Assembly: GCF_000423225.1 (NCBI RefSeq)
Contig: NZ_AUHO01000006.1
Coordinates: 806,001-870,000, forward strand
Length of the DNA stretch: 64,000 bases
Direction: 5' to 3'
Origin: Kaistia adipata DSM 17808
Lineage (GTDB): Bacteria; Pseudomonadota; Alphaproteobacteria; Rhizobiales; Kaistiaceae
Position 1 is the first letter of the stretch; every line of letters begins with the position of its first letter. Under the pieces are notes generated by a model. That model made no database searches, was not told where the DNA came from, and was given only the letters and a program-made list of their open reading frames with translations. Below, in pieces: positions 14,838 through 39,550 of this stretch. A program made the translations under genes and the position numbers.

Positions 14838-16121
14838 ATGCAGAACGACCCGCGATCGCACGGGCTCTGGGAGCGGACGGCGCCGTCCGCGCCGCCGACG
14901 CAACCCTTGGCCGGCGACATCAAGGCCGACGTCGTCGTGATCGGCGGCGGCTTCACCGGACTCTCGACCGCGCTGCACGCAGCCCGCGACGGCATGAACG
15001 TCGCCGTGCTCGAGGGCGTCGAGATCGGCTTCGGCGGCTCGGGCCGCAATGTCGGGCTGGTCAATGCCGGCATGTGGGTCATGCCAGACGCCGTGCCCGC
15101 GGCGCTCGGCGCCGATTATGGCGAGCGATTGCTAGCGCTCCTCGGCGAGGCGCCGCGCGCGGTGTTCGAGCTCGTCCGGGAACACGCGATCGCCTGCGAG
15201 CCGGAGACCCAGGGCACGCTGCATTGCGCGGTCGGCGCGGCCGGCCTCGACGAGATCGCGCGGCGGGCGGCGCAGTGGCAGGCGCGCGGCGCCGATGTCC
15301 ACCTGCTCGACGCCGAGGAGACCGCCGCGAAGGTCGGAAGCCGCGCCTATGCCGGCGCCCTGCTCGACCGCCGCGCCGGCACCATCCAGCCGCTCGCCTA
15401 TGTCCGCGGCCTCGCACAGGCCGCGCTCCGCCACGGCGCCCGCATCCACACGCGGAGCCCTGCTCTGGCGACCGAACGAGCCGGCGCCGGCTGGCGCGTC
15501 GCGACGGCGGGCGGCGCCGTGACCGCCGACTGGGTCGTGGTCTCGACCGACGCCTATGGCAGCACGCCCTGGCCGGAGATCCGGGCGGAGCAGGTTCACC
15601 TGCCCTACTTCAATTTCGCCACCGCGCCGCTCGGCGACGACCTCCGGCGCTCCATCCTGCCGGAGCGCCAGGGTGCCTGGGACACGCGCGAGATCCTGAG
15701 TTCGTTCCGCTTCGACCGGGCCGGGCGGCTCGTCTTCGGCAGCGTCGGCGCGCTGCGCGGCACCGGCGCGCCGATCCATCGCGCCTGGGCGCGCCGGGCG
15801 CTGGCGCGGATCTTCCCGGAGATCGGCGACGTCGCCTTCGAGGCCGAATGGTATGGCCAAATCGGCATGACCGACGACAGCCTGCCGCGCTTCCACAAGC
15901 TGGCGCCGAACGTCATCGCCTTCTCCGGCTACAATGGGCGCGGCATCGCGCCGGGCACCGTGTTCGGCCGCCAGCTCGCGGCGCATGTCGCCGGAAGGAT
16001 CCGAGAGGCCGACCTGCCGTTGCCGCTGACGCCGCCGGTCGAGGCCCGCTTGCGCCGGCTCAAGGAGGCCTATTACGAATGGGGCGCGCAGTTCGCCCAC
16101 TTCGCCGATGCGCGGCTCTGA
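14838..16121 (+). CDS. FAD-dependent oxidoreductase (DAO family), L-pipecolate-oxidase-like
   Basis: A 427-residue flavoprotein. The Rossmann loop ADVVVIGGGFTGLSTALHAA at about residues 30-49 binds FAD, GFGGSGRNVGLVNAG follows as in glycine/D-amino-acid oxidase family members, and FSGYNGRGIAPGTVFGRQLA near residue 385 is the C-terminal FAD-contact block. The family oxidises amines and amino acids. The next gene is an antiquitin-type aldehyde dehydrogenase. In Pseudomonas putida AmaA (L-pipecolate oxidase) and AmaB (piperideine-6-carboxylate dehydrogenase) form just such a pair, so lysine/pipecolate breakdown is the best guess; gamma-glutamylputrescine oxidase is a close alternative. The spacing to the dehydrogenase is 39 bases. 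Confidence 0.75.
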   Translation: MQNDPRSHGLWERTAPSAPPTQPLAGDIKADVVVIGGGFTGLSTALHAARDGMNVAVLEGVEIGFGGSGRNVGLVNAGMWVMPDAVPAALGADYGERLLALLGEAPRAVFELVREHAIACEPETQGTLHCAVGAAGLDEIARRAAQWQARGADVHLLDAEETAAKVGSRAYAGALLDRRAGTIQPLAYVRGLAQAALRHGARIHTRSPALATERAGAGWRVATAGGAVTADWVVVSTDAYGSTPWPEIRAEQVHLPYFNFATAPLGDDLRRSILPERQGAWDTREILSSFRFDRAGRLVFGSVGALRGTGAPIHRAWARRALARIFPEIGDVAFEAEWYGQIGMTDDSLPRFHKLAPNVIAFSGYNGRGIAPGTVFGRQLAAHVAGRIREADLPLPLTPPVEARLRRLKEAYYEWGAQFAHFADARL

Positions 16122-16160
16122 CGGGCCGCAGCCAAGCCGGGTTCATTGAGGACAGATGTC

Positions 16161-17702
16161 ATGACGATCGCCATCAAGAGCAGCCTCGCCGCCGAGGTCG
16201 ACACCCTTCTCGCCGGAATGGGCGTGCCCGCGGCGGCCCGGACCGGCGGCACGCTCGCCGTCCATTCGCCGATCACCGGCGAGGAACTGGCGCGTCTCGT
16301 CGAGGCGGACGAAGCCGGTGCCAAACGCACGGTCGAAGCCGCGCATGAGGCGTTTCTCGCCTGGCGCAACGTGCCGGCGCCGAAGCGAGGCGAGCTGATC
16401 CGGCTGCTCGGCGAGGAATTGCGCGCCAACAAGAATGCGCTGGGCCGCCTCGTCTCGATCGAGGCGGGCAAGATCGTCTCCGAGGGCCTCGGCGAGGTGC
16501 AGGAGATGATCGACATCTGCGACTTCGCCGTCGGCCTGTCGCGCCAGCTCTATGGCCTGACCATCGCCACCGAGCGCGGCGATCACCGCATGATGGAGAG
16601 CTGGCACCCGCTCGGCGTCACCGGCGTGATCTCGGCTTTCAACTTCCCCGTCGCGGTGTGGTCGTGGAACGCCGCTCTGGCGCTCGTCTGCGGCAACAGC
16701 GTGGTGTGGAAACCGTCGGAGAAGACGCCGCTGACAGCCCTGGCGACCGCGGCCCTGTTCGACCGCGCCGCTGCGCGCTTCGCCGCCGCCGGCGGTGCGC
16801 TGCCGGCCCATCTCGCCACCGTGCTGATCGGCGGCCGCGCCATCGGCGAGGTGCTCGTCGACCATCCGCGCGTGCCGCTGGTCTCGGCGACCGGCTCGAC
16901 CGCCATGGGTCGAGCCGTCGGCCCTCGCCTCGCCGGCCGCTTCGCCCGGGCGATCCTGGAGCTCGGCGGCAACAACGCCGCGATCGTATGTCCCTCGGCC
17001 GATCTCGACCTGACGCTCCGGGGCGTCGCCTTCGCCGCCATGGGCACGGCCGGCCAGCGCTGCACCTCGCTGCGCCGCCTGTTCGTGCATGACAGCGTCT
17101 ACGACACCCTGGTGCCCCGCCTGAAGCAGGCCTATGGCTCGGTGACGATCGGCAATCCGCTCGAGAGCGGCACGCTGGTCGGGCCGCTGATCGACGCCCG
17201 CGCCTATGACGGCATGCAGAAGGCGCTCGCCAGCGCCAAGGCGGCCGGCGGCACGGTGACGGGCGGCGAGCGCGTCGAGACGGCCGCGAGCGCCGCCTAC
17301 TACGTCCGCCCGGCCATCGTCGAGATGCCGGAGCAGAACGGCCCGGTCGAGCAGGAAACCTTCGCGCCGATCCTCTACATCATGCGCTACAGCGATTTCG
17401 ACGAGGCCATCCGCCTGCACAACGCCGTGCCGCAGGGGCTTTCCTCCTCGATCTTCACCAACGACCTGCGCGAGGCGGAAACTTTCCTGTCGGCGCGCGG
17501 CTCGGATTGCGGCATCGCCAACGTCAATATCGGCCCGTCCGGCGCCGAGATCGGCGGCGCGTTCGGCGGCGAGAAGGAAACCGGCGGCGGCCGGGAATCC
17601 GGCTCCGACTCCTGGAAGGCCTATATGCGCCGCGCGACCAACACCATCAATTACGGCAAGACCCTGCCGCTGGCCCAGGGCGTCAAGTTCGACGTCGCCT
17701 GA
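16161..17702 (+). CDS. aldehyde dehydrogenase, family 7 (antiquitin/AmaB-like)
   Basis: A 513-residue NAD-dependent dehydrogenase. The family blocks are all present: VISAFNFPVAVWSWNAALAL, WKPSEKTPL, the general base Glu in ILELGGNNAAIV and the catalytic Cys in GTAGQRCTSLRR. The latter form, with GQRCTS rather than GQVCTA, and the C-terminal EIGGAFGGEKETGGGRESGS block mark ALDH7/antiquitin, which oxidises alpha-aminoadipate semialdehyde in lysine breakdown. The start at 16161 follows GAGGACA by eight bases; the TTG at 16146 overlaps that site. It is the second gene of an oxidase-dehydrogenase operon ending in a large hairpin at 17728. Confidence 0.85.
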   Translation: MTIAIKSSLAAEVDTLLAGMGVPAAARTGGTLAVHSPITGEELARLVEADEAGAKRTVEAAHEAFLAWRNVPAPKRGELIRLLGEELRANKNALGRLVSIEAGKIVSEGLGEVQEMIDICDFAVGLSRQLYGLTIATERGDHRMMESWHPLGVTGVISAFNFPVAVWSWNAALALVCGNSVVWKPSEKTPLTALATAALFDRAAARFAAAGGALPAHLATVLIGGRAIGEVLVDHPRVPLVSATGSTAMGRAVGPRLAGRFARAILELGGNNAAIVCPSADLDLTLRGVAFAAMGTAGQRCTSLRRLFVHDSVYDTLVPRLKQAYGSVTIGNPLESGTLVGPLIDARAYDGMQKALASAKAAGGTVTGGERVETAASAAYYVRPAIVEMPEQNGPVEQETFAPILYIMRYSDFDEAIRLHNAVPQGLSSSIFTNDLREAETFLSARGSDCGIANVNIGPSGAEIGGAFGGEKETGGGRESGSDSWKAYMRRATNTINYGKTLPLAQGVKFDVA

Positions 17703-17962: not shown

Positions 17963-18110
17963 TATCAATGCGTCAGGCCGCGAACTGAGCGAAGACGAAG
18001 CGCGTCCTGTTCCAACGACGATGAAGAGCGCCATCCACGACCGCCTCCGGTCGCACGGCGTCGTCGTGGGCACGCAGATACTTGCGGCCCATCCAGACCA
18101 GAGGAGAACG

Positions 18111-19265
18111 ATGCCGATGAGCAAGATTTCGATCCCGACGCTGGCCGTGGCGCTACTCATGGCGACCACCGGCCTTTCGACCGCCGACACGATCAAGATC
18201 GGCGTGAACCAGCCCCTGACGGGCCCGTTCGCCGCTTCGGGCACCTATATCGTCGACGGCGCCAAGATCGCGGCCGAGCAGATCAACGCCGCCGGCGGCG
18301 TGCTCGGCAACCAGATCGAGCTGGTGATCGAGGACAACAAGAGCAATCCGACCGAAGCCGCTGCCGTCGCCGAAAAGCTGATCGAGCGCGACAAGGTGCC
18401 GGTGATGATGGGCGCCTGGGGCTCGAGCCTGACGCTCGCCGCGATGCCGAAGCTGATGCAGTACGAGGTGCCGATGCTGGTCGAGACCTCCTCGTCGAGC
18501 AAGATCACCAAGCAGGGCAACCCCTACATCTTCCGCATCTCGCCGCCCTCCTTCGTCGAGGCAGCGCTGTTCAAGACGCTGCTGCCGGATCTCGGCATCA
18601 AGAAGGTCGACTTCCTGGCGATCAACAACGACTGGGGCCGTGGCACGATCACCGACTTCACCGCCATGTTCAAGGAGAACGGCGTCGAGGTCGGACTGTC
18701 GGAGATCATGGACCAGGCGGCGCAGGACATGAGCGCCCAGCTCGCCAAGATCAAGGCGTCCGATTCCGACACGATCATCGTCACCACCGCCGTCGAGCAG
18801 CTGACGCTGGTGCTGAAGCAGGCGGCGGCCCTCGGCATCAACAAGCGCATCATCACGACGGGCGGCTCGCAGAATCCGGACCAGCTGATCGAGCAGGCCG
18901 GCTCCGCCGCCAACAACACCATGCACATGGTGTTCTTCGCGCCGTGGGAACCGGAAAAGACGCCGCATCCGGACCAGGCCAAGGCCTTCATCGACGCCTG
19001 GGCGAAGGAAGGCCATGGCAGCGCCGGCCTGACGGAGAGCTATCGCGGCTATGACGGCATCTACGTCATCAAGGCAGCGATCGAGAAGGCCGGCGTCGCC
19101 GAGCCGAAGGCGATCCGCGACGCGTTCTGGCAGATTTCCGTGCCGACGCTGAACGGCACCGTCACCTTCGTCAAGGACGGCCCGGAAGGCCGCGAGAGCG
19201 GCCAATACATGGCCAACGGCACGCTGATCAAGATCGTCGACGGCAAGGTCACGCTGGCGCACTGA
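18111..19265 (+). CDS. ABC transporter periplasmic substrate-binding protein, LivK-type
   Basis: A 384-residue exported protein: signal peptide IPTLAVALLMATTGLSTA, then DTIKIGVNQPLTGPFAASGT, the classic start of Peripla_BP_6 (leucine/amide-type) binding proteins, and INAAGGVLGNQIELVIEDNK. The start at 18111 is set by GGAGA three bases before; the frame back to 18021 is not needed. No permease gene adjoins it: a LivHMGF set without its own binding protein lies at 40466-43887, in the same putative regulon, so this is its likely partner. The ligand is probably an amino acid or amide. A strong terminator follows, so the gene is transcribed alone. Confidence 0.85.
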   Translation: MPMSKISIPTLAVALLMATTGLSTADTIKIGVNQPLTGPFAASGTYIVDGAKIAAEQINAAGGVLGNQIELVIEDNKSNPTEAAAVAEKLIERDKVPVMMGAWGSSLTLAAMPKLMQYEVPMLVETSSSSKITKQGNPYIFRISPPSFVEAALFKTLLPDLGIKKVDFLAINNDWGRGTITDFTAMFKENGVEVGLSEIMDQAAQDMSAQLAKIKASDSDTIIVTTAVEQLTLVLKQAAALGINKRIITTGGSQNPDQLIEQAGSAANNTMHMVFFAPWEPEKTPHPDQAKAFIDAWAKEGHGSAGLTESYRGYDGIYVIKAAIEKAGVAEPKAIRDAFWQISVPTLNGTVTFVKDGPEGRESGQYMANGTLIKIVDGKVTLAH

Positions 19266-20011: not shown

Positions 20012-20776
20012 CTAGGCGCCGCCACCCCGGTGCGGGCCGCTGCGCTCGAGGAGGTCGATCCGGAGCGCGAAACAGCTCTTGTGGTAGTGGATGTCGGCCA
20101 CGTAGATCGCGACGTCCTTGTCGTCGACCAGCACGAGCCGGCAATCCGCCGTCGGTTCGCCGAGGCCGATTCCGAGCAGATCGGCGGTCTCCGGGCTGGC
20201 GACGCCGATCGTCAGCGTCTGATGCGCGTGATTGATGGTCACGTCCGGCATCTCGACGATCCTGGGCAGGGCCGCCGCATGCATGAACTTCTTGCCGCCC
20301 TTGTCGAAGATGTGCCGGGCCAGGTGCAGGTTGACGACGGAGAACGGCTCGCCGCCATTGTACTGCACGCTGCGCAGGAACACGTAGCCCTCGGCCGGAC
20401 TGCCCTCGCCTTCGCTAAGATCCGGGCTCGGCGCGTCTTCCTCGATGTGGACGCGCTTTAGCACGTTGTCCTTGATCGAGGAGACCATCGCATCGAAGTC
20501 GTTGGCGAGGTTCAGCCAGCGATTGTGCTTGGGCTTGCCGGACACGAAGGTGCCGCGACCCTGCTGTGCGTTGAGAAGCCCTTCCTCGCGCAGAAGCTCG
20601 ATCGCCTGGCGAATGGTCACGCGGGCGACGGCGAACTCCTGCTCCAGTTCCTCCAGCGTCGAGATCTTGTCGCCTTCGACCCAATGGCCCGAATCGATGC
20701 GCTGGCGCATGACGGAGGCCACCTGGATGTAGAGCGGAACACGGCTGCGGTCGTAGATGGATGTCAGTTTATTCAT
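20012..20776 (-). CDS. GntR family regulator with UTRA domain (HutC-like)
   Basis: A 254-residue regulator. The N-terminal GntR winged helix spans about residues 10-78 (VPLYIQVASVMRQRIDSGHW, EQEFAVARVTIRQAIELLRE, NAQQGRGTFVSGKPK); a UTRA ligand-binding domain fills residues 95-245 with YVFLRSVQYNGGEPFSVVNL and the final VADIHYHKSCFALRIDLLER. The start at 20776 (MNKLTSIYDRS) gives the normal N-terminus; the longer frame to 20929 is not homologous. UTRA regulators sense small molecules such as urocanate or sugar phosphates. It is the only pathway-specific regulator inside the F420 island, so it is the first candidate to bind the shared 18-bp dyads. No good copy of the dyad lies before its own start. 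Confidence 0.85.
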   Translation of the reverse strand: MNKLTSIYDRSRVPLYIQVASVMRQRIDSGHWVEGDKISTLEELEQEFAVARVTIRQAIELLREEGLLNAQQGRGTFVSGKPKHNRWLNLANDFDAMVSSIKDNVLKRVHIEEDAPSPDLSEGEGSPAEGYVFLRSVQYNGGEPFSVVNLHLARHIFDKGGKKFMHAAALPRIVEMPDVTINHAHQTLTIGVASPETADLLGIGLGEPTADCRLVLVDDKDVAIYVADIHYHKSCFALRIDLLERSGPHRGGGA

Positions 20777-20860
20777 AATACCAACATACAGCAGATGAGC
20801 CCAATTTACCAGCATGCGCGCCTGCCCCCCGGAACGGACGACGTCCGCACCGAGGAACTG

Positions 20861-20886
20861 CCGGTTCGCACTTTGACGCGAACCGG
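20861..20886 (-). terminator. hairpin downstream of the Cox-type operon
   Basis: A 9-bp stem (CCGGTTCGC and GCGAACCGG) 80 bases after the last Cox-type gene on the minus strand. No T-run, so only a possible terminator. Confidence 0.35.
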
Positions 20887-20965
20887 GGCGCATCTGCAAC
20901 TCGCTGCAGCAAGCCCACCGCTGCGGCAACCCGCCCGACCAGCGGTCCGACGGGCTTCCAGCCGC

Positions 20966-22213
20966 CTAGCGGCGGCCGAACAATGCCGCAAAGAAGCGCT
21001 TGATACGCCCGAACACTACGGAGGAAACCAGCGACCCGGCATCGAGTTCCGTAACCACCGGCGGCGCCGAGGCTCCCGGCTCCCCCCCGCCGGCCTGGTG
21101 CGCCAGCTTCGCTTCCAGATTCTGGACGAAGGCCGCGATCAAGCGCCCGGCGACATCCTGCACCAGGCCCGAGCGGCCGAACTGCGCGAGAACGCCGGTC
21201 AGCGTATAGCCGATGCTGACGTCAACTCGCGTCTCGCCCGGCTTGTCGCCCGGCTTCACGGCATAGCCGATCAGGCCGCGTGTCGCGGAGTTGCTGCGTT
21301 TGTCCTTGCCGGCCCCGTTGATGGTGCCGGTCTTGGTCGCGTCGTCACGGCTGACGTCGGCGACGCCCTGGAACTCGGCCGAGATCGGGCCGACCTTGAT
21401 GCGGATCTGGCCCTCGACATGGCCGTCGACGGGTTCGCCGGCGAGCGAGGCACCGGGCAAGCAGGACGCGACCTCGCCGATGCGGTCGAAGAACGCCCAG
21501 ACTTCATCGACCGGATGGCCGACCGTGAAGCTTTCGGTGAAGGTGGTCTGCGGCTTCCAGTCGGCATCCTGCCGCGCCGGCGCGGCCGCCTTCGCGTCCG
21601 GCCTTGAGTCGGATTTCGCGACCGTCAGGGTCGGCTTCCTGGCGCCCGACGAGGCGGTGCCAAACTGCGTCGCCGCGACGGCATGGCCGGAACCCGCCGG
21701 CCCCAGCGCGGTGCGGTGCTCGCCGCCCGGAATCGCCGCGATGCCGCGGGCGCGGCGGGCCGCGATGACGCCCTGGATGGCGCGGACGATGCCGACATAG
21801 CCGGTGCAGCGGCAGAGATTGCCGCTCATCGCGACGCGGATCTCATGCTCGGACGGGTCGTCCATGCGCAGCACGACGTCGCGCGCCGAGACGATCATGC
21901 CCGGCGTGCAATAGCCGCATTGCAGCCCGTGCTCGCTGGTGAAGGCGGCGCGGAGCTCCGTCGCGACTTCGTCGTTGTCGAGCCCTTCGACGGTGGTGAC
22001 GTCGGCCTGCTCGCAGGCGACCGCGAAGGTGATGCAGGAGCGCGTCGGCACGCCGTCCACGAGAATGGTGCAGGCGCCGCAGACGCCGTGCTCGCAGCCG
22101 ATATGCGTGCCGGTGAGGTTCTGGGTATCGCGCAGGAAGTCCGCGAGATGCGTGCGCGGCTCGATGTCGGCGCGCGCCGGCTTGCCGTTTACCGTGAGCG
22201 TGACCGTATTCAT
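20966..22213 (-). CDS. xanthine-dehydrogenase-family 2Fe-2S small subunit fused to a CoxG/SRPBCC domain
   Basis: A 415-residue two-part protein. Residues 1-155 are a complete CoxS/XdhC-type small subunit with two iron-sulfur clusters: CEHGVCGACTILVDG in the plant-ferredoxin fold and GLQCGYCTPGM with NLCRCTGYVGI in the helical domain. A linker rich in Ala, Gly and Pro covers about 155-225. Residues 225-385 are a CoxG (SRPBCC) domain, as in VDEVWAFFDRIGEVASCLPG and GVADVSRDDATKTGTI, with a C-terminal hydrophobic stretch (VVFGRIKRFFAALFG) that may touch the membrane. CoxG helps recruit CO dehydrogenase to the membrane in Oligotropha. The start overlaps the medium-subunit stop by four bases (ATGA). 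Confidence 0.88.
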   Translation of the reverse strand: MNTVTLTVNGKPARADIEPRTHLADFLRDTQNLTGTHIGCEHGVCGACTILVDGVPTRSCITFAVACEQADVTTVEGLDNDEVATELRAAFTSEHGLQCGYCTPGMIVSARDVVLRMDDPSEHEIRVAMSGNLCRCTGYVGIVRAIQGVIAARRARGIAAIPGGEHRTALGPAGSGHAVAATQFGTASSGARKPTLTVAKSDSRPDAKAAAPARQDADWKPQTTFTESFTVGHPVDEVWAFFDRIGEVASCLPGASLAGEPVDGHVEGQIRIKVGPISAEFQGVADVSRDDATKTGTINGAGKDKRSNSATRGLIGYAVKPGDKPGETRVDVSIGYTLTGVLAQFGRSGLVQDVAGRLIAAFVQNLEAKLAHQAGGGEPGASAPPVVTELDAGSLVSSVVFGRIKRFFAALFGRR

Positions 22214-23049
22214 GCTGAGTGGGCTCGTTCGATGGCGCGACGGAGCGCGACGACATGGGTCTGGCGGTCGAGCGGGTCTTCCATGCCGGCGGCGGCGACG
22301 ATTTCGTCGGCGGCGGCGCTGTCAAAGACCTGTTCGAGCCTGGCGGCGGTGCCGTCGCCGAGAAGCCGGCTTGCGTCGGCCACGACGATGGGCCGGCTTT
22401 CCGTGGCGCCGATGACGACACGACAGACGCCCCGGTCGGGATCGGCCAGGAAGGCGCCGATCGCATGGGCGAACTCTCCCGTCTTGCGGCAGCTCTTGTA
22501 GTAGCCCCAGCGCGCCGAGCGCCCGAGCTTCGGGACCGTCGCCGAGACCAGCATCTCGCCGGGCCGGAGGTCGGCCTCCAACGCGCCGAGCATGTAGTCC
22601 TCGACGGCGATGGTGCGCTCGCCGGACGGGCCGCGCAGCGTGACGCGGGCGCCGACCGCCGAGAGCATCGAGATCCAGTCGGCGGAAGGATCCGCATGGG
22701 TCAGGCTGCCGCCGACCGTGCCGCGATTGCGCACGGCACGATAGGCGATGCCGTTGGCGACGCGGGGCAGCGCGCCGTGCGTCACGTCGGGCACGCGCCT
22801 GTCCTCGATATCGGCGTGCGTGATGCAGGCGCCGAAGACGATCGCGTCGCCCTTGTCGGTGACCTGCTTCAATTCGTCGATCGCCGCGATGTCGACGAGG
22901 AGGTCCGGCTGCACCAGCCGCATGTTGAGCATCGGGCCGAGCGACTGGCCGCCCGCCATCAGCTTCACGCTCGGCCCGTCCTCGGCCAGAAGCGCGAGCA
23001 CCGCGCCGACATCGGCCGGCCGCGCATAGTCGAAATTGACCGGCTTCAC
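22210..23049 (-). CDS. xanthine-dehydrogenase-family FAD-binding medium subunit (CoxM-like)
   Basis: A 279-residue protein beginning MKPVNFDYARPADVGAVLAL. The two FAD-contact motifs are clear: MAGGQSLGPMLNMRL near residue 32 and RNRGTVGGSLTHADPSADW near residue 107. It carries electrons from the iron-sulfur subunit through FAD to an acceptor. It overlaps the large subunit by four bases upstream and the fused small subunit by four bases downstream, so the three are made in step. Length matches CoxM and its relatives. Confidence 0.92.
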   Translation of the reverse strand: MKPVNFDYARPADVGAVLALLAEDGPSVKLMAGGQSLGPMLNMRLVQPDLLVDIAAIDELKQVTDKGDAIVFGACITHADIEDRRVPDVTHGALPRVANGIAYRAVRNRGTVGGSLTHADPSADWISMLSAVGARVTLRGPSGERTIAVEDYMLGALEADLRPGEMLVSATVPKLGRSARWGYYKSCRKTGEFAHAIGAFLADPDRGVCRVVIGATESRPIVVADASRLLGDGTAARLEQVFDSAAADEIVAAAGMEDPLDRQTHVVALRRAIERAHSA

Positions 23050-25412
23050 GCGAATTCCCCCTGCTTGACCTGGCTCGCCGCACTGGCCGTCTTCGCCGCC
23101 TGGATCGCCTCGAGCACGCGGCGCGGCGTCATCGGCGAATGCAGCAGTTCGGCACCGAACCGGCGGAGCGCGTCATTGACGGCGTTGCCGATCGCGGCCG
23201 GCGGCGCGATCGCGCCGCCCTCGCCGATGCCCTTGACGCCGAACTCGGTATAGGGCGCGAGCGTCTCCATGTGATCGACCCGCGGCGCCGGCACCTCGGT
23301 CGGCCCCGGCAACAGATAGTCGGCGAAGGTCGAGGCGAGCGGCTGGCCGGAGGCGTCGAAATTCATCTCCTCGTAGAGCGCCGTGCCGATGCCCTGCGCC
23401 AAGCCGCCATAGATCTGGCCGTCGACGACCATCGGGTTGATCAGCTTGCCGCCGTCCTCGACGATGACGTAGTCGAGGATCTCGATGTCGCCCATCTCGG
23501 GATCGACGGCGACGACCACGGCATGCGCGGCATAGCTGAACGTGCCGGAATCGCGCACCGGCTTGTAGCCGATGGTCGATTCGAGCCCGCGGGGATCGAC
23601 CGAGGCCGGAAGATCCTGCGGACGGCGATACCAGGTGAAGGCCACCGTCTCGAGGCTGACGCTGCCATGGGGACCGACGACGTGGCCGTCGACCAGCTTC
23701 ACGTCGGCGACGTCGGCCTGCAACAGATGCGCGCCGATGCCCTTGGCGAGGCCGGCGACCTCGCGGGCGGCGGTCGCGACCGCGCCGCCGGCCATCACCG
23801 CGCAACGCGAGCCCCAGCTTCCCGTCGAGTACGGCGTGTATTCGGTGTCGCCATGCACGAGCTTGATCTTGGCGGTGTCAATGCCGAGGATCTCGTTCGC
23901 GACCTGCGGCAGCGTCGTCTCCATGCTCTGGCCGTGCGAATGCACGCCGACGCGGATCTCGAGGCCGCCGTCCGGCGTCATCCGCGCCGTCGCCTGCTCG
24001 TGGCCCGGCACCATGGGGATGCCCCAGCCGGCATAGACCGAGGTTCCGTGCGCGCCCTGCTCGCAATAGATCGAGTGGCCGATGCCGATCAGGCGACCGT
24101 CCGGCTCACCCTGCTGCTGGCGCGCGCGGATGCCGGCGAGGTCGATCGCCGCCATGGCGCGATGCAGCGCCTCGGGATAGTCGCCGGAGTCGAAATGCTT
24201 GCGGGTGATGTTGTCGAACGGCATCTGCTCGGGCTGGACGAGGTTCTTCAGCCGCACCTCGTGCGGCTCTATCCCCGCCTCGCGGGCAATGGCGTCGAGC
24301 ACCAGTTCGAGCGCGTAGCAGACGCCCGTCCGCGCCACGCCGCGATAGGGCAGGATCGGGCATTTGTTGGTCGAGACCGACCAGGTCCGGCAGCGATAGG
24401 ACGGGAAATCATAGGGCCCCGGCAGGATGCTGGCGATCTGCGCCGCCTCCAGGCACGCCGAGAACGGATAGGAGGAGTAGGCGCCGGAATCGACGGTCGC
24501 CTCGCACTCGATGCCGCGCAGCTTGCCGTCGCGATCGGCATAGCCGGTGATGATGTAGTGGTGCTCGCGGCAGTTCGCGCCGGCCGTCAGATGCTCGCGG
24601 CGATCCTCGATCCAGCGCACGGGATGGTCGAGCTTCATGGCGAGGAAGGCGAGGCAAATGTCCTCGGGCAGCAGGATGCCCTTGTAGCCGAAGCCGCCGC
24701 CGACATCCGGCGAGACGATGCGGACCTGCTCCTGGCCAAGGCCGAGGCATTCGGCGAGGCCGGTGCGGACGATGTGCGGCATCTGGCTGCCGGTATGGAG
24801 CACCAGCTGCTCAAGCCGCTTGTCCCAATAGGCGACGGTGCCGCGCCCTTCCATCGGCGCCATCGACTGGCGAGCGGTCGAGATCTCGCGCGTCACCTTG
24901 ATCGGGGCGTCGTAGGCCGCCTCCATGTTGACGTCGACGAAGGTCTCGAGAAAGACGTTGTCGCCCCAGTGCTCATGCACCAGCGCGGCGCCCGGCTTCC
25001 GGGCCTCGATCATGTCGTGCAGGGCCGGCAGTTCGTCGAGGTCGAGTTCGACGGTCGCGGCAATATCCTCCGCCTCGGCCCGGCTGGTGCCGACACAGAC
25101 GGCGATCAGCTCGCCGACCTGGCGCACCTTCTCGAAGGCGAGGACGGGCTGCTCGGAAACCTTGAAACCGGCGAGGCCTGACACGGCGACGATCGGCTTC
25201 ACGCCCTTGAGGTCGCCCGCGACATAGACCCGGTCGCGCATCTCGTCCGGGATGCGGACGCCCGCGATACGGGCATGAGCGAGCGGCGAGCGGACGAAGG
25301 CGACGTCCTTCATTCCCGGCAGCCGAAGGTCGGCGACATACTGGCCGCGCCCGCGGAGGAAACGGTCGTCCTCCTTGCGGAGCATGGACGCGCCGACACC
25401 CTGATTCTTCAT
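23046..25412 (-). CDS. xanthine-dehydrogenase-family molybdopterin large subunit, form-II CoxL-like hydroxylase
   Basis: A 788-residue molybdenum enzyme subunit. It starts with the family phrase VGASMLRKEDDRFLRGRGQY, contains VSPDVGGGFGYKG for the cofactor and ends in VKGIGEGGAIAPPAAIGNAV, whose Glu731 is the conserved base at the Mo site. At residues 355-361 it reads PYRGVAR where true (form I) CO dehydrogenases have the Cys-containing AYxCSFR loop; this matches form II (AYRGAGR), so oxidation of CO is unlikely and hydroxylation of an aromatic or N-heterocycle, or oxidation of an aldehyde, is more likely. First gene of the L-M-S order. Accessory CoxDEF genes are not present. A candidate regulon operator lies 93 bases upstream. 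Confidence 0.88.
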   Translation of the reverse strand: MKNQGVGASMLRKEDDRFLRGRGQYVADLRLPGMKDVAFVRSPLAHARIAGVRIPDEMRDRVYVAGDLKGVKPIVAVSGLAGFKVSEQPVLAFEKVRQVGELIAVCVGTSRAEAEDIAATVELDLDELPALHDMIEARKPGAALVHEHWGDNVFLETFVDVNMEAAYDAPIKVTREISTARQSMAPMEGRGTVAYWDKRLEQLVLHTGSQMPHIVRTGLAECLGLGQEQVRIVSPDVGGGFGYKGILLPEDICLAFLAMKLDHPVRWIEDRREHLTAGANCREHHYIITGYADRDGKLRGIECEATVDSGAYSSYPFSACLEAAQIASILPGPYDFPSYRCRTWSVSTNKCPILPYRGVARTGVCYALELVLDAIAREAGIEPHEVRLKNLVQPEQMPFDNITRKHFDSGDYPEALHRAMAAIDLAGIRARQQQGEPDGRLIGIGHSIYCEQGAHGTSVYAGWGIPMVPGHEQATARMTPDGGLEIRVGVHSHGQSMETTLPQVANEILGIDTAKIKLVHGDTEYTPYSTGSWGSRCAVMAGGAVATAAREVAGLAKGIGAHLLQADVADVKLVDGHVVGPHGSVSLETVAFTWYRRPQDLPASVDPRGLESTIGYKPVRDSGTFSYAAHAVVVAVDPEMGDIEILDYVIVEDGGKLINPMVVDGQIYGGLAQGIGTALYEEMNFDASGQPLASTFADYLLPGPTEVPAPRVDHMETLAPYTEFGVKGIGEGGAIAPPAAIGNAVNDALRRFGAELLHSPMTPRRVLEAIQAAKTASAASQVKQGEFA

Positions 25413-25614: not shown

Positions 25615-26999
<1,385 letters not shown>

Positions 27000-27003
<4 letters not shown>

Positions 27004-27323
27004 TGGACCTTAGCGCTCGCGCGCTCCTCCTGCTTGGCGGCCTTGGCCTTGTCGAACATGGCGAGCATGCGATCGGTGATCAGGAAGCCGCCGACGACGT
27101 TGGCCATGGCGCAGCCGACAGCGATGGTGCCGAGCACCGTGCTGAGCACGCTCTGGTTGGCGCCGGCGAGCACGATCGAGGCGACGAGCGAGATGCCGGA
27201 AATGGCATTGGTCGCGGCCATCAGCGGCGTGTGCAGCAGCGGCGGCACGCGGGTGATGGCCTGGAAGCCGACAAAGCCGGCCAGGACGAAAACGAAAAGC
27301 TGGATGACGGCCGTGGACGTCAT
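27000..27323 (-). CDS. pntAB: NAD(P) transhydrogenase alpha subunit, membrane part
   Basis: A 107-residue protein with three to four helices, for example LFVFVLAGFVGFQAITRVPP and VLGTIAVGCAMANVVGGFLI, and the conserved PLLHTPLMAATNAISGI block. It corresponds to the C-terminal membrane segment of E. coli PntA, which is a separate small protein in alphaproteobacteria. It lies 148 bases after pntAA and overlaps pntB by four bases. Confidence 0.93.
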
Positions 27324-27471
27324 GATGATCCTCCGGAGAGACGGCTCGCCGTCGGCGACAGCGGCGCAAGGGCAGGCATTCCCCCGCGGCGAACCGCGAG
27401 GGTTGCGCCGGGCGATGACGCCCGGAGCGGGATGAAGAAAGATCGGCTAGATGACAGCGCCGCGCGGCGCG

Positions 27472-28611
27472 TCAGCTCGCCAGCGCGTTGGCGAAGGCCG
27501 GATGAACGATCTGCCCTCCCCGCGTCAGGTTGGTGCTCTTGATCAGGTCGTCTTCCCAGTTGACCGCGAGATCGGCGGTACGCTGGTCAACCAGCGTCGA
27601 GACGAACGAATAGAGGTTTCGCGCATAGAGGTTGGACGCGGTGGCCGCGACCTTCAGGACGCTGGAATTGCCGAGGATCTTGACGCCGTTCGCCGTGGTG
27701 ACGACCTCGCCCGCCCTGGCGCCCTCGACATTGCCGCCGCGCTCGACGGCGAGATCGACGATCACCGATCCGGCGCGCATGGGCTCGATCATCGCCGAGG
27801 TGATCAGGATCGGCGCGGTGCGGCCGGGGATCAGCGCCGTGGTGATGACGATGTCCTGGCGACGCAGATGCTCGCTGACGAGCTCCGCCTGCTTGGCCTG
27901 GTAGGCCTTCGACATCTCCTTGGCGTAGCCGCCCGCGGCCTCCGCCTTCTTGAACTCCTCGTCCTCGACGGCGATGAACTTGGCGCCGAGCGACTCGACC
28001 TGCTCGCGCGCGGCCGGACGGACGTCGGTCGCCGTGACCACGGCGCCGAGACGGCGCGCCGTCGCGATCGCCTGAAGACCGGCGACGCCGGCGCCCATGA
28101 CGAAGATCTGCGCGGCCGGGACGGTGCCCGCCGCCGTCATCATCATCGGCAGCGATCGCGTATAGGCGGCCGAGGCGTCGATCACGGCGCGGTAGCCGGC
28201 GAGATTGGCCTGGCTCGACAGCACATCCATGCTCTGCGCGCGGGTGATGCGCGGCATCAGCTCCATGGCGAAGGCGGAGACGCCGGCGCTCGCCATGATG
28301 TCGAGCGAATCGGCCGGACGATGCGGATCCATGGTGGCGATGACGATGGCGCCCGGCTTGCAGGCGCGGATCACCTCGGCCGAAGGCCGGTTGACCGACA
28401 GCACGATGTCGGCGTGACGGACCGTCGTGGCGGCGTCGGGCGCGACGCGGGCGCCAGCGCGCTCAAACTCCTGGTCGGAGAAGCCGGCGCCGTCCCCGGC
28501 GCCGCCCTGGACCAGGACCTTTCCGCCCAGAGTCTCGTATTTCTTGACCGTCTCCGGGGTGGCTGCCACCCGCGTGTCGGTCATCGTGTCGGACAGAACC
28601 GCAATATGCAT
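27472..28611 (-). CDS. pntAA: NAD(P) transhydrogenase alpha subunit, NAD-binding part
   Basis: A 379-residue soluble subunit with the alanine-dehydrogenase-like fold. The N-terminus MHIAVLSDTMTDTRVAATPE and the NAD loop VMGAGVAGLQAIATARRLGA are clear, and VVTATDVRPAAREQVESLGA follows. It binds NAD(H) on the cytoplasmic face of the transhydrogenase. The start at 28611 follows AGGAGA by seven bases; the longer frame to 28689 is not homologous. First gene of pntAA-AB-B; a near-perfect copy of the regulon dyad lies 107 bases upstream. A housekeeping copy may exist elsewhere in the genome, as the regulated context is unusual for this enzyme. Confidence 0.93.
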   Translation of the reverse strand: MHIAVLSDTMTDTRVAATPETVKKYETLGGKVLVQGGAGDGAGFSDQEFERAGARVAPDAATTVRHADIVLSVNRPSAEVIRACKPGAIVIATMDPHRPADSLDIMASAGVSAFAMELMPRITRAQSMDVLSSQANLAGYRAVIDASAAYTRSLPMMMTAAGTVPAAQIFVMGAGVAGLQAIATARRLGAVVTATDVRPAAREQVESLGAKFIAVEDEEFKKAEAAGGYAKEMSKAYQAKQAELVSEHLRRQDIVITTALIPGRTAPILITSAMIEPMRAGSVIVDLAVERGGNVEGARAGEVVTTANGVKILGNSSVLKVAATASNLYARNLYSFVSTLVDQRTADLAVNWEDDLIKSTNLTRGGQIVHPAFANALAS

Positions 28612-28717
28612 GACCACATCTCCTGAAAGCGATGGACCGCAAGGCCAGTGGCTCCCCCCTGTGGTCGCCCGCCCTGACGTCGCGTTCACATTGCGCCCAA
28701 GGCGTCGCTAAATCAAC

Positions 28718-28897: not shown

Positions 28898-30181
28898 CTA
28901 GCTCTTGGCGATCGGCTCGGCGTTGCACCAGTCGTAGATGCTGAGCGCCATCACCTTGATCGAGGTCATGTAGTCGTCGATCGAGACATACTCGTCATTG
29001 GCGTGCATGACGGCGGTCGAGCCCGGTCCGAAGATCACGGTCGGGGTATGGCCGTATTCGTTCAGGAAGCGCGTGTCCGCCGCGCCCTGGCGGCCGCTGA
29101 TCACCGGCGTCTTGCCCGTAATCTCGGTATAGGTCCGGCACACCGTCTCGACGATGCCGTGGTCGCGCGGGATCTCGGACGCCTGCGCGTCGTAGCCGAC
29201 GAAGCGCACGACCGGCGGATGATCCTTCATCCAGGGGTCGTTCTTCGCCATCTCGGCGATCTTGTCGACCAGGCTCTGCTTGACGCCCTCGTGGTCCTCG
29301 CCCGGCACGGTGCCGATGCTGCCCTTCAGAACGGCGCTCGCCGGGAAGGCGCTCGGATAATTGCCGGCCTGGAAGGAGCCGATGATGCAGGGGAGCGAGT
29401 CGAGCGCGTTCGGATAGAGCGGATGCTTGACCGTCGCGACGCGGTGGTCCTCCAGCTCCTGCACGGCCTTGACGACCTTGTTGCCGAGCTCGATGGCGCT
29501 GATGCCCATGTAGCGCTGCTGGATGCCGGCCGGCTTCCCCTGCACGTCGATCTGGAACCAGATGCGGCCGATGCAGGCCGGCTGCACGGCGAGATCGCTG
29601 GTCTCGCCCGAGATGCCGGCGTCGGCGGTGTAGCCGCGGATCACCGTGTCGAGCGTGCCGTGGCCGGAGACCTCCTCGTCGATGACGACGTTGATGTAGA
29701 CGTCGCCCTTCAGGTCGATGCCGGCTTCCTTGAGGTACTGCACCGCAAGGATGTGGCTGGCGACGCCGCTCTTCATGTCGCAGGAGCCGCGGCCATAGAT
29801 GCGGCCGTCCTTGATCGCCGCCGACCACGGATTGTCGCTCCAGCCCTCGCCATTACCGACCGGGATGACGTCCGTGTGACCATTCAGGAGCAGCGAACGG
29901 CCGCCGCCGGAACCCTTGCGGGTGGCGACGATGTTCGGCCGGCCCTCATAGCCGCGATCGACGGGACGATAGCCCGGATGCTTCTTCAGCTCCTCCCAGT
30001 CCGTCTCCCACATGTCGACGTCCAGGCCGATGCCGGTCATGTAGCCGGAAACGAATTCCTGGATCGCGGCCTCGTCGCCGGTGACGCTCGGAATGGCGAC
30101 CATGTCCTGCAGGAAGCGGATCGCCTGGTCGCGGTTGGCGTCGATCGCATCGATGATTTTCTGGCGGTTGGGATCGGTCAT
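28898..30181 (-). CDS. M20 family metallohydrolase (ArgE/DapE type)
   Basis: A 427-residue di-zinc amidohydrolase. The metal ligands are all visible: His in LLLNGHTDVIPVG, Asp in YGRGSCDMKSGVA, the Glu-Glu pair in VIDEEVSGHGT, a ligand in GISGETSD and the last His in AVMHANDEYVS. A lid/dimer domain fills the middle. The family removes acyl or formyl groups from amino acids or splits related amides (acetylornithine deacetylase, succinyl-diaminopimelate desuccinylase). No arginine or lysine synthesis gene is close. It is the last gene of the operon headed by the PLP lyase, so it probably cleaves an N-acyl or ring-opened intermediate of the pathway. Confidence 0.85.
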   Translation of the reverse strand: MTDPNRQKIIDAIDANRDQAIRFLQDMVAIPSVTGDEAAIQEFVSGYMTGIGLDVDMWETDWEELKKHPGYRPVDRGYEGRPNIVATRKGSGGGRSLLLNGHTDVIPVGNGEGWSDNPWSAAIKDGRIYGRGSCDMKSGVASHILAVQYLKEAGIDLKGDVYINVVIDEEVSGHGTLDTVIRGYTADAGISGETSDLAVQPACIGRIWFQIDVQGKPAGIQQRYMGISAIELGNKVVKAVQELEDHRVATVKHPLYPNALDSLPCIIGSFQAGNYPSAFPASAVLKGSIGTVPGEDHEGVKQSLVDKIAEMAKNDPWMKDHPPVVRFVGYDAQASEIPRDHGIVETVCRTYTEITGKTPVISGRQGAADTRFLNEYGHTPTVIFGPGSTAVMHANDEYVSIDDYMTSIKVMALSIYDWCNAEPIAKS

Positions 30182-30224
30182 GAGACGTTCCGGATTGCTT
30201 CTGGATGGTGTTTTGGCGGCGAGA

Positions 30225-30261
30225 GGCCGCGCCGCCTCCCCCTCCGGGAGACGGCGCGGCC
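30225..30261. other. hairpin between the M20 and LLM genes
   Basis: A 10-bp GC stem (GGCCGCGCCG and CGGCGCGGCC) in the 93-base gap inside the operon. No T-run on the minus strand; may adjust downstream expression or mRNA stability. Confidence 0.35.
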
Positions 30262-30274
30262 CAGGCTCAGTGGC

Positions 30275-31258
30275 TCAGAGCGCCTTCAGACGGGGGATGA
30301 TCTCGCGAGCGATCGTCTCGATCTGATCCGTCTGGTACTTGTAGGGAACGAAGATGATCTTCTGGACGCCGGCGTCGATGTGCTCGCGCAGCTGCTCGAC
30401 GCACTCGTCGACCGAGCCCATGATGGCGCTTTCGCGGGTGCAGTCGCTATGCTCCGGGAAGTCCCATTCCTTGTTGAGCCAGTCCATCATGTCGTCGCGC
30501 ACCGCGTCCTTGGACGGGCCGACCATGATCGGCAGCTGCGAGGCGTTCATGACCTTCGACGGGTCCTTGCCGGCTTCCTTGGCGAAACCGAGCACCTTGT
30601 CCCACGACTTCTTGAAGTCCTCGGCGCGGTAGAAATAGGTCAGCCAGCCATCGCCGGTGGTGCCGGCGCGCTTCAGCGCCGCGTCGGCATAGCCGCCGAT
30701 CAGGATCGGAAGCTGCGGCTGCGCCGGCTTCGGATACATCACCGCCTTCGACAGCTTGTAGTTCAGCTGCACGCCGGTGGCCTCGTCGTCGATCTTGTAG
30801 TCGCCGGTGACGAGATCCTCGGTCCACAGGCGGCGCATGATCTCGAGGTTCTGATCCATGATCTTGCCGCGCTTGGTGAACGGCAGGCTCATGGCGTCGA
30901 ACTCGCGCTTGTACCAGCCGGCGGCCATGCCCATGACCATGCGGCCGTTCGACAGCTGGTCCATCGACGAGAGCTGCTTGGCGAGCGCCACCGGGTTGCG
31001 CAGCGGCAGCACCAGGATGCCGGTGCCCATCTTGATGCGGGTCGTGCGGGCGGCGATGCCGGTCAGCGCGGTCAGCGAGTCGATGATCGGGAAGTTCGGG
31101 TCGACGCCGAGCAGCATGTGGTCCCAGACCCACACCGAGTCGTAGCCGAGCTCCTCGACGCGGACGCCATAGTCAACCAGAGCGCGGGCATCGGGCATAT
31201 TCGGATACGCGACGAAGTTGCGCGCGGCGATGCCGAACGTCTTGGACAGCATAGTCAT
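30275..31258 (-). CDS. LLM-class (luciferase-like) oxidoreductase, probably F420-dependent
   Basis: A 327-residue TIM-barrel protein of the bacterial-luciferase superfamily. VRVEELGYDSVWVWDHMLLG near residue 33, IKMGTGILVLPLRNPVALAK near 75 and SNGRMVMGMAAGWYKREFDA near 103 are the usual cofactor-side blocks. Family members use F420 or FMN. Here F420 is strongly favoured because F420 synthesis genes and NpdG lie in the next operon, with no flavin reductase nearby. The start at 31258 follows GGGAGGA. It may reduce an unsaturated or heteroaromatic intermediate with F420H2; the substrate is not known. It follows the CoA-transferase genes in one operon. Confidence 0.82.
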   Translation of the reverse strand: MTMLSKTFGIAARNFVAYPNMPDARALVDYGVRVEELGYDSVWVWDHMLLGVDPNFPIIDSLTALTGIAARTTRIKMGTGILVLPLRNPVALAKQLSSMDQLSNGRMVMGMAAGWYKREFDAMSLPFTKRGKIMDQNLEIMRRLWTEDLVTGDYKIDDEATGVQLNYKLSKAVMYPKPAQPQLPILIGGYADAALKRAGTTGDGWLTYFYRAEDFKKSWDKVLGFAKEAGKDPSKVMNASQLPIMVGPSKDAVRDDMMDWLNKEWDFPEHSDCTRESAIMGSVDECVEQLREHIDAGVQKIIFVPYKYQTDQIETIAREIIPRLKAL

Positions 31259-31279
31259 AGAATTCCTCCCAATGAAAAA

Positions 31280-32047
31280 TCAGATGAACATCCGCTCAGG
31301 GTCGATGGACCGGAGCGTTTCCAGTTCATGCTCGGTCGGCGGCTCGGTGATCGCGATCTGCTCGTCGAAGACGAGGTCGAAGCCGGTATTGTCCTGCACG
31401 TTCTCGCGGCTGACGCCGGGATTGAGCGCCAGCACCTTCATGCGGCGGGTCTTCTCGTCGAAGCCGAAGATGGCAAGCTCGGTGATGACCCGGAACATGC
31501 CGCCGGCCGGCAGGCCGCTCTCGGCGCGGCTGGTGCCGCCCCGGATGAAGCCCGGGCTGGTGATGAAGTCGACCTTCTCGACGAAGCGGCGCTTCTCGTG
31601 CTTCATCGCCACGATCATGTTGGTGAGGCTCGAGATGTCGTTGCCGCCGCCGGTTCCCGGGAGGCGCGTCTTCGGCGCGGCCGGATCGCCGATGAAGGAC
31701 GAGTTCAGGTTGCCGAACTGGTCGATCTGGGCGCCGCCCATGAAGCCGATGTCGACATAGCCGCGCTGCAGGAGCAGCAGCACGTCGGCGCTGCCGAGCA
31801 CCATGTTGGCGCGCTTGGTGCAGCGCTGGTCGTTGGTCGAGGGCGGCAGCTTGCCCGGCTCGACGAAGGCGCCGACGACGCCGCCCTCGAACAGGATGGT
31901 GAGACCCGGGCAGCGCAGGCGCTGGGCCAGCGTCGCGGCGAGCAGCGGCGTGCCGACGCCGGCGAAGACGACCTGCCCGTCCTTCAGCTGCCGGGCACTG
32001 AGGATCGCCAGGATCTCGGCGGCGGTGTAGCGCGTCGTGTCAGTCAT
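31280..32047 (-). CDS. CoA-transferase subunit beta
   Basis: A 255-residue protein of the class I CoA-transferase family (glutaconate CoA-transferase/IpdB-like). The block LTILFEGGVVGAFVEPGKLP holds a Glu at the place of the catalytic residue, and VDIGFMGGAQIDQFGNLNSS and SPGFIRGGTSRAESGLPAGG are family features. The family either moves CoA between acids or, in IpdAB, hydrolyses a ring. It overlaps the alpha gene by eight bases and precedes the LLM gene by 21. The likely role is activation of a carboxylic acid produced by the pathway. Confidence 0.85.
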   Translation of the reverse strand: MTDTTRYTAAEILAILSARQLKDGQVVFAGVGTPLLAATLAQRLRCPGLTILFEGGVVGAFVEPGKLPPSTNDQRCTKRANMVLGSADVLLLLQRGYVDIGFMGGAQIDQFGNLNSSFIGDPAAPKTRLPGTGGGNDISSLTNMIVAMKHEKRRFVEKVDFITSPGFIRGGTSRAESGLPAGGMFRVITELAIFGFDEKTRRMKVLALNPGVSRENVQDNTGFDLVFDEQIAITEPPTEHELETLRSIDPERMFI

Positions 32048-33005
32048 TGTAGATGCTCCGCCCCTTCTGGCTCGCGTCCAGAACTTCCTCCATGCCGATC
32101 AGGGCGAGGTATTCGTTCCAGGATTTCGGCTCGTAGAAGTAGCGCTCGAGATATTCGCGCATGCCCTCGACCGGGTCCGAATTGACCTTGGCGACATAGG
32201 CTTCCATGTGGTTCAGCATCGGCTCGTAGATGCCGAAGCACTCATGCGGCGCGGAGCCGTAGGGAACCTCGACGACCGCATCGACACAGAAGAACGGGAT
32301 CTTGGTCTGGTCGGGCGCGCGGCGGATCTGGTCGTTGGAGACGATCCGCTCCGTCGTCAGGATCACGCGGTTGGCGGCGAGCGCCAGGTCGATGTCCATG
32401 AACTGCAGGCCGTCGATCTGGGCGTTGCCATAGGCATCGCAGCGCTGGACGTGGATCAGCGCAACGTCGGGGTTCAGGGCCGGCACCAGCAGCAGCTTCT
32501 CGCCCGTGAACGGGCAATCGATCTGCTTGGCCTCCGGCCGCTGGTCCATGACGTCAGAGCCGAGCATCGAGCGGATCGGCAGGAACGGTACGCCCATGCC
32601 ACCGGCGCGGAAGCGCATGCCGACCGCCATGTGGCTCCATTCCTCGTAGCGGGCGAGGCCCTGCTCGACGTGGCGGCGCATGACCTTCGACAGGCCCCAG
32701 AGGATCCCCTGCGCGAACCAGCTGGTGATGATGTGGTCGGAGACGCCGGATCCGAACAGGATGTCGCCATCCGTCGAGGTGATGGCCCGCGAGCAGGACA
32801 GGTTCTTGCGGCGCTGGCGCACCAGCTCCCAGATCATCGCCATCGGCGTGCGCGACATGGTGGAGCCGCCGATGCCGACCTTCATGCCGTCCTGCACGAA
32901 GGAGGCGGCCTCCTCCAAGGTCATGACCTTCTCGCGCAGACTGCGGTCGCGCTGGGACAGATTCTCCCTGAGCCTCTGATAGGGCTCTACCTGGGCGTTC
33001 AGCAC
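32040..33005 (-). CDS. CoA-transferase subunit alpha
   Basis: A 321-residue protein with EKVMTLEEAASFVQDGMKVG followed by IGGSTMSRTPMAMIWELVRQ, the CoA-binding start of the family, and later ALNPDVALIHVQRCDAYGNA. It is the partner of the beta subunit at 31280. The start is GTG at 33005, set by AAGGAGG five to seven bases upstream. It follows the PLP lyase by 37 bases. Confidence 0.85.
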   Translation of the reverse strand: MLNAQVEPYQRLRENLSQRDRSLREKVMTLEEAASFVQDGMKVGIGGSTMSRTPMAMIWELVRQRRKNLSCSRAITSTDGDILFGSGVSDHIITSWFAQGILWGLSKVMRRHVEQGLARYEEWSHMAVGMRFRAGGMGVPFLPIRSMLGSDVMDQRPEAKQIDCPFTGEKLLLVPALNPDVALIHVQRCDAYGNAQIDGLQFMDIDLALAANRVILTTERIVSNDQIRRAPDQTKIPFFCVDAVVEVPYGSAPHECFGIYEPMLNHMEAYVAKVNSDPVEGMREYLERYFYEPKSWNEYLALIGMEEVLDASQKGRSIYND

Positions 33006-33042: not shown

Positions 33043-34545
<1,503 letters not shown>

Positions 34546-34597
34546 TTCCGAAAGCTCCCGTCCCCGTTTCACCGTCATGCCCGACGGTTAAAAGAGG

Positions 34598-39545: not shown

Positions 39546-39550
39546 GGGGA

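Follow-up and report, generated by a model that had tools for sequence, protein, structure and literature searches.

In Oligotropha carboxidovorans, coxS and coxG are separate genes of the coxBCMSLDEFGHIK cluster, which also includes the maturation genes coxDEF, and CoxG is proposed to recruit the hydroxylase to the membrane so that electrons can pass to quinone, much as we propose below for a fused protein; a coxG mutant grows slowly on CO, with a generation time of 149 h versus 21 h, and its enzyme is catalytically active (available sections of PMC4240915). The CO dehydrogenase of M. smegmatis (PDB 8uem and 8uds) resembles the system studied here in its CoxG fold and its CoxS domain (47% identity), but its CoxG is a separate chain (8uds) and its large subunit is that of a CO dehydrogenase. 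CoxG is described as menaquinone-binding in the available part of PMC13240472, which cites Kropp 2025. CoxG homologues bring glycerol-3-phosphate dehydrogenase (G3PDH) to the membrane in Sulfolobus acidocaldarius, again tethering a quinone-reducing enzyme, although these are separate archaeal proteins, the dehydrogenase is unrelated, and the authors assign CoxG no electron-transfer role (PMC11962113, in the portion available). The same portion has a CoxG homologue proposed as the membrane anchor of HpdA, the 3-hydroxypyridine dehydrogenase of Ensifer adhaerens HP1, a likeness by description; the title says four components, so the homologue is presumably unfused.

Two further hydroxylases resemble the enzyme encoded here in other respects. 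Caffeine dehydrogenase (Cdh) has molybdopterin, FAD, and iron-sulfur subunits, acts on an N-heterocycle, and has coenzyme Q0 as its best acceptor, but its third subunit is described as iron-sulfur only, unlike the fused subunit reported below (compared by description, from the accessible text of PMC10380055). Quinoline 2-oxidoreductase of Pseudomonas putida 86 (1t3q) is the best solved match to both our large subunit, L (477 bits), and our small subunit, S (170 bits); its small subunit has 168 residues and therefore lacks a CoxG domain, unlike ours. As far as the excerpts available to us go, the literature is divided between CoxG as a passive anchor and CoxG as a quinone carrier.

The window, by which we mean the whole 64,000-nucleotide stretch of Kaistia adipata DSM 17808 DNA analyzed here, encodes a fused form. 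The original prediction had placed a CoxS-CoxG protein at 20966–22213 without giving a strand, and we confirmed it: on the minus strand, these positions exactly span a 415-residue frame running from ATG to TAG that contains the Pfam domains Fer2 (aa 7–59), Fer2_2 (aa 74–147, 95.4 bits), and COXG (PF06240, aa 228–370, 59.5 bits against a curated cut-off of 22.2). Over this interval, the plus strand holds only overlapping open reading frames, and its first reading frame contains a stop. The protein comprises a CoxS-type domain with two [2Fe-2S] clusters (aa 1–153; 21755–22213), identified by Pfam, alignment, and fold match; an unconserved, disordered linker (aa 154–224; 21542–21754); a CoxG/SRPBCC domain (aa 225–373; 21095–21541); and a C-terminal basic amphipathic helix that is a predicted membrane-surface anchor (aa 392–412; 20978–21040), all on the minus strand. 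The eight cysteines of the two clusters (C40, C45, C48, and C60; C99, C102, C134, and C136) are invariant in 22 of 22 aligned fusions. Because one polypeptide bears both domains, the 1:1 ratio of CoxS to CoxG that had been predicted is supported. In the annotation records that we saw, the fused subunit appears only as a "2Fe-2S iron-sulfur cluster-binding protein."

An AlphaFold model of the protein (22 rows; mean pLDDT 80.5, pTM 0.64) consists of two mostly confident domains joined by a disordered linker (pLDDT below 50 at aa 169–212) and followed by a helix at aa 392–412. Foldseek and VIA-align place aa ≈1–157 on iron-sulfur subunits and aa 223–372 on M. smegmatis CoxG (8uds), the latter with a Z score of 21.3 and an rmsd of 1.5 over 146 aligned residues. 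The two CoxG sequences also match directly (E 5e-19) and have PG, GP, and LAQF motifs in common. Between domain envelopes, the linker measures 47 to 102 residues in 53 proteobacterial fusions (median 60) and 52 to 57 in five actinobacterial ones (median 55).

The C terminus had been described as hydrophobic, and here we correct the original prediction: in the model it forms a basic, moderately amphipathic helix that is not transmembrane and is predicted to bind the membrane. PDB entry 8uds itself bears the phrase "minus lipid anchoring C-terminus" in its title. CoxG tails are of two kinds. Taking a 19-residue window with a mean Eisenberg hydrophobicity of at least 0.68 as transmembrane-like, and excluding L002 and L177 (both repeats of our own locus), L054 (at a contig end), and four tails that were too short, we found such tails in none of 53 proteobacterial and none of five actinobacterial fusions. 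Among stand-alone CoxG proteins ranked by a fusion-derived profile, transmembrane-like tails occur in 0 of 15 scoring at least 130 bits, in 1 of 17 with intermediate scores, and in 18 of 20 scoring below 62 bits, the classical proteins. The most amphipathic 18-residue tail window carries a median charge of +3 in proteobacterial and +5 in actinobacterial fusions; a hydrophobic moment (μH) of at least 0.4 combined with a charge of at least +1 is reached in only 33 of 53 fusions, and the helix in the window has a modest μH of 0.39. The same genome also carries a second, stand-alone CoxG (L001, G000:C4:234953-235372) upstream of a separate CoxS and with a transmembrane-like tail, a contrast within one genome.

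The frame is intact in relatives. Matches to the full length (aa 1–415) without stops occur in two congeners, at 93% and 89% identity, and also in S. meliloti, on symbiotic plasmids, at ≈72% identity. The fusion is scattered in the genus, where 3 of 14 genomes carry it (28 genomes of the family were examined; both counts include our own); of the 1279 records with matches in a plasmid collection, 22 have one place that spans 80% or more of the query. Compared with congeners G023 and G019 and with S. meliloti, respectively, dN/dS is 0.11, 0.10, and 0.15 for the CoxS domain; 0.25, 0.25, and 0.46 for the linker; and 0.04, 0.04, and 0.17 for the CoxG domain. For the end helix, which has only 26 codons, it is 0.05 and 0.03 within the genus, and in the S. 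meliloti comparison synonymous sites are saturated. The low values for CoxS and CoxG mean that each domain is translated in this frame and required, with the linker drifting more freely.

To gauge how common the fusion is, we surveyed several genome sets. A scan of named genomes, from which the 80 loci most like the query were taken, yielded 23 fused loci; together with three from the genus (our own included) and five plasmid loci, these make 31 distinct fusions, with L002, our own locus again, left out. Their hosts are Alpha-, Beta-, and Gammaproteobacteria and Actinomycetota, including Actinomycetospora, Pseudonocardia, Streptomyces, and Klenkia. For a less biased count, we ran a CoxG profile of this group against 297 genomes of the order and obtained 56 matches in 47 genomes at E ≤ 1e-20, of which 29 places are fused and 27 unfused. 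Open frames span at least 394 residues at the fused places and at most 291 at the unfused ones. Among the latter, a CoxS gene lies within 150 nt in four and farther off in eight, and 15 have no S in the stretch, some of these being cut by contig ends. The 29 fusions come from as many different genomes with 15 family codes, our own included, and the figure of 29 in 297 is a minimum, as at most 11 candidates were scored per genome. Across the phylum, a frame of fused size scoring above 150 bits occurs in 12 of 398 genomes (our own included; classed by size alone, and leaving out a long frame in G325 at 75.6 bits); nine of the 12 belong to the same order, and one has a stop inside the match. The pooled counts are not all independent, and species may recur across genome sets. 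At G480:C22:72073-72606 we noted a match of fusion size with one in-frame TGA, either a pseudogene or a sequencing error.

The fusion is thus real and widespread, and generic annotation hides it in the records that we saw. A literature search returned no paper describing a CoxS-CoxG fusion in its title or the start of its abstract, which does not prove absence from print. Pfam may list the architecture.

Trees of the two domains bear on how often the fusion arose. A CoxS tree of 108 rows puts the proteobacterial fusions in a 38-row group (support 82) that comprises 26 fused members, five with a separate neighboring G, and seven without CoxG seen beside S, one of which (L060) is cut by a contig end; the five actinobacterial fusions form another group (support 98). 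In a CoxG tree of 60 rows, the 25 proteobacterial fusions group with six unfused relatives (100/100), and the actinobacterial group stands apart (100/99). In the proteobacterial group, fused members are interspersed with unfused ones, and on the quick CoxS tree the fused label changes seven times, three of them forced by starred branches. Repeated loss or splitting within this group is likely, though not shown, as the root was not inferred.

Placing all fused rows in one clade is rejected both for CoxS (p-AU 4.5e-6) and for CoxG (p-AU 0.0008), tests in which nested unfused genes also count. Joining the actinobacterial fusions with the whole proteobacterial group is only weakly rejected, with a p-AU of 0.046 for CoxG and 0.107 for CoxS. 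In a careful CoxS tree of 67 rows, the proteobacterial group (36 rows) does not form one side of a branch, though its grouping is not rejected (p-AU 0.395). Two origins, one proteobacterial and one actinobacterial, are likely but not proven. The near-constant linker length noted above belongs to actinobacterial fusions L059, L061, L064, L065, and L067, perhaps a second origin. Their CoxL matches are weak: those of L059, L061, and L065 lie ≈1.6 kb upstream and score 283, 296, and 290 bits; L064 has a 125-bit CoxL match in an overlapping frame, and L067 has no CoxL match at the locus.

Three overlapping minus-strand genes in the window follow the order L-M-SG and end with the fused gene. It overlaps by 4 nt a gene for a CoxM-type FAD subunit of 279 residues (22210–23049; PF00941), which in turn overlaps by 4 nt a gene for a CoxL-type molybdopterin subunit of 788 residues (23046–25412; Pfam). 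By small margins, the nearest solved relative of both L and S is quinoline 2-oxidoreductase 1t3q, at 477 bits versus 442 for M. smegmatis CoxL and at 170 bits versus 162 for the best CO dehydrogenase. None of the 13 NCBIfam models listed for L reaches its cut-off. Elsewhere, a 2,5-dihydroxypyridine 5,6-dioxygenase gene lies near the fusion in Variovorax and a maleate isomerase gene near that in Paracoccus. Because of these solved relatives, the pyridine-catabolism neighbors, and the coenzyme Q0 preference of caffeine dehydrogenase, a quinone-linked N-heterocycle hydroxylase is the natural guess from sequence for the enzyme encoded here. Three relatives that share the active-site motif of this enzyme (L063, L069, and L070) have no CoxG within ≈8 kb, so that enzymes of this class may be able to do without the CoxG domain.

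The operon is part of a cluster of ≈26 kb that also holds F420 biosynthesis genes. Directly downstream of the fused gene lies a GntR/UTRA regulator (20012–20929, minus strand; start codon uncertain), recognized by Pfam and by matches in S. meliloti and the congeners. Upstream of the operon, all on the minus strand, are the NAD(P) transhydrogenase genes pntB, pntAB, and pntAA (25615–28689), named after their S. meliloti matches; an ArgE/DapE-type deacylase, an F420-dependent-type LLM oxidoreductase, and two CoA-transferase subunits (28898–33005); and the F420 genes for CofGH/FbiC, CofC, CofD, CofE, and an NADPH-F420 reductase (34677–40216). The upstream genes also include a branched-chain-type ABC transporter, and a substrate-binding protein of this type is encoded near the operon (18021–19265, plus strand). 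In this proteobacterium, an F420 set and an F420 reductase are neighbors of a molybdenum hydroxylase.

Much of this neighborhood is conserved in S. meliloti. Twenty of the 24 window genes compared between 14838 and 43975 have matches of 53 to 89% identity in a stretch of S. meliloti GR4, the four without a match there being those at 14838, 16146, 19315, and 33043, and the same gene set occurs on the symbiotic plasmids of both GR4 and R28. Congeners G023 and G019 match 23 of the 24, the fetched stretch ending before the last. A Pseudolabrys contig matches the deacylase and, partially, the F420 reductase; the stretches compared from Bradyrhizobium, Methylobacterium, and Geminicoccaceae hold matches to the hydroxylase and transporter but to none of the F420 genes. 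A PLP-type enzyme gene of the window (33043–34578, minus strand) recurs in both congeners but is unmatched in the stretches from S. meliloti. At 14838–17702 on the plus strand lie genes for an L-pipecolate oxidase-like protein (below cut-off) and an L-piperidine-6-carboxylate dehydrogenase (above cut-off), both matched in the congeners. A diaminopropionate ammonia-lyase gene (44658–45863, plus strand; 514.7 bits against a cut-off of 276) hints at a substrate that yields diaminopropionate, and this function is also among those tagged by k-mers in the available text of PMC8407117.

According to that text, from an association study, k-mers linked to nodule competitiveness in S. meliloti, chiefly in strains GR4, KH35c, and KH46, tag F420 biosynthesis, branched-chain-type transport, and PntA/PntB, as well as the molybdenum subunit of a "putative caffeine dehydrogenase," CoA-transferase, deacylase, and GntR (PMC8407117). 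Compared by function, the tagged list is much the same as that of our cluster, which GR4 carries. A full reductive ring-degradation pathway could not be drawn, as a dihydroorotase-like gene of S. meliloti has no match in the window.

On balance, we favor the view that the fused gene encodes the Fe-S subunit of an N-heterocycle-type L-M-S molybdenum hydroxylase of the xanthine oxidase family with a built-in quinone-delivery module. The basic amphipathic helix would dock on the inner membrane, the cavity of the CoxG domain would take up (ubi)quinone, and the linker would let the domain swing to the FAD/iron-sulfur exit of its own enzyme, where the quinone would be reduced, and then back; the fusion would in this way swap a diffusing CoxG for a tethered one. 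From the gene content, the hydroxylase may open an F420-linked catabolic pathway in which transhydrogenase would supply NADPH and the F420 reductase F420H2; the hydroxylated ring would be reduced by the LLM enzyme and its product then processed by the deacylase and CoA-transferase. We hold only tentatively the broader idea of a tethered quinone shuttle that has arisen at least twice and here drives F420-dependent catabolism tied to rhizobial competitiveness.

Several other explanations deserve weighing. In favor of a sequencing or assembly error that joined two genes, S and G are separate adjacent genes in Azospirillum and Caballeronia. A split by frameshift was set aside for two Azospirillum loci, where S closes at a normal stop codon and a potential start for G lies a few bases on, without a linker. 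The worry about such an error is not borne out: a single open frame holds S and G in all 31 distinct loci (our own included), independent genomes refute it with 29 fusions in one order alone (again counting our own), the frame is intact in the congeners and S. meliloti, and selection acts in frame on either side of the S/G junction, so that we give an artefact practically no credence. The original prediction had also framed the protein by comparison with CO dehydrogenase loci. AYXCSFR is the CoxL active-site loop of form I Mo-Cu CO dehydrogenase. The large subunit here is related to CoxL and belongs to the same enzyme family, and TIGR02416, the CO dehydrogenase model, matches it at 454.8 bits, but this is far under the model's cut-off of 991.15, and the motif reads PYRGVAR instead of AYRCSFR. 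[PA]YRGVAR is present in every one of the 22 proteobacterial fusion loci in which CoxL extends as far as the motif (four further loci, our own included, are without readable CoxL), and none of the five AYRCSFR loci of the set is fused. No coxDEF gene is found among the window genes scanned, and the one CoxE-type match in the genome, CoxE being the only one of the three for which the genome was searched, lies on contig C1, not on contig C2 with the window. By active-site motif and TIGR02416 score, the CO dehydrogenase frame is not supported, and a true Mo-Cu enzyme with a fused coxG is very improbable.

What the CoxG domain does is a closer question, as the fusion fits both the anchor and the quinone-delivery readings. 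It would be rather unlikely, in our estimate, for the domain to be a membrane anchor only, with the FAD subunit reducing quinone itself, although the anchoring without electron transfer concluded for the S. acidocaldarius homologues (PMC11962113, as available) and the FAD-to-quinone route proposed for CO dehydrogenase recruited by Oligotropha CoxG (PMC4240915, in part) are in keeping with it, as is the recurrence of one tail type among fusions. Against it, a helix alone could presumably anchor the enzyme, yet strong selection (dN/dS 0.04) spans the whole ligand-binding fold, which is why we lean toward quinone delivery, and CoxG is described as menaquinone-binding (PMC13240472, available part). 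It is less probable still that the CoxG/SRPBCC domain, instead of binding quinone, aids assembly or has a hydrophobic substrate or product as its ligand. SRPBCC-type folds do take varied ligands, and our model has further matches among polyketide cyclases and plant hormone receptors, but the best match of the domain is M. smegmatis CoxG itself, and its placement on the iron-sulfur subunit points weakly in the same direction. The two functional parts of the original prediction are plausible by analogy: membrane tethering from the reports of CoxG recruitment (PMC4240915 and PMC11962113, as far as accessible), with a tail that is itself only predicted to bind, and electron flow to the respiratory chain because CoxG is described as menaquinone-binding in the available text of PMC13240472.

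A natural fusion fixes the stoichiometry and names the subunit that CoxG serves, and mutants with a cut linker or an altered pocket would therefore provide a clean test of the role of CoxG. Our findings suggest that hand-off by CoxG extends beyond CO oxidation, to hydroxylases that are annotated only generically in the records that we saw, and the surrounding cluster suggests a role for F420 in rhizobia that can be put to the test.
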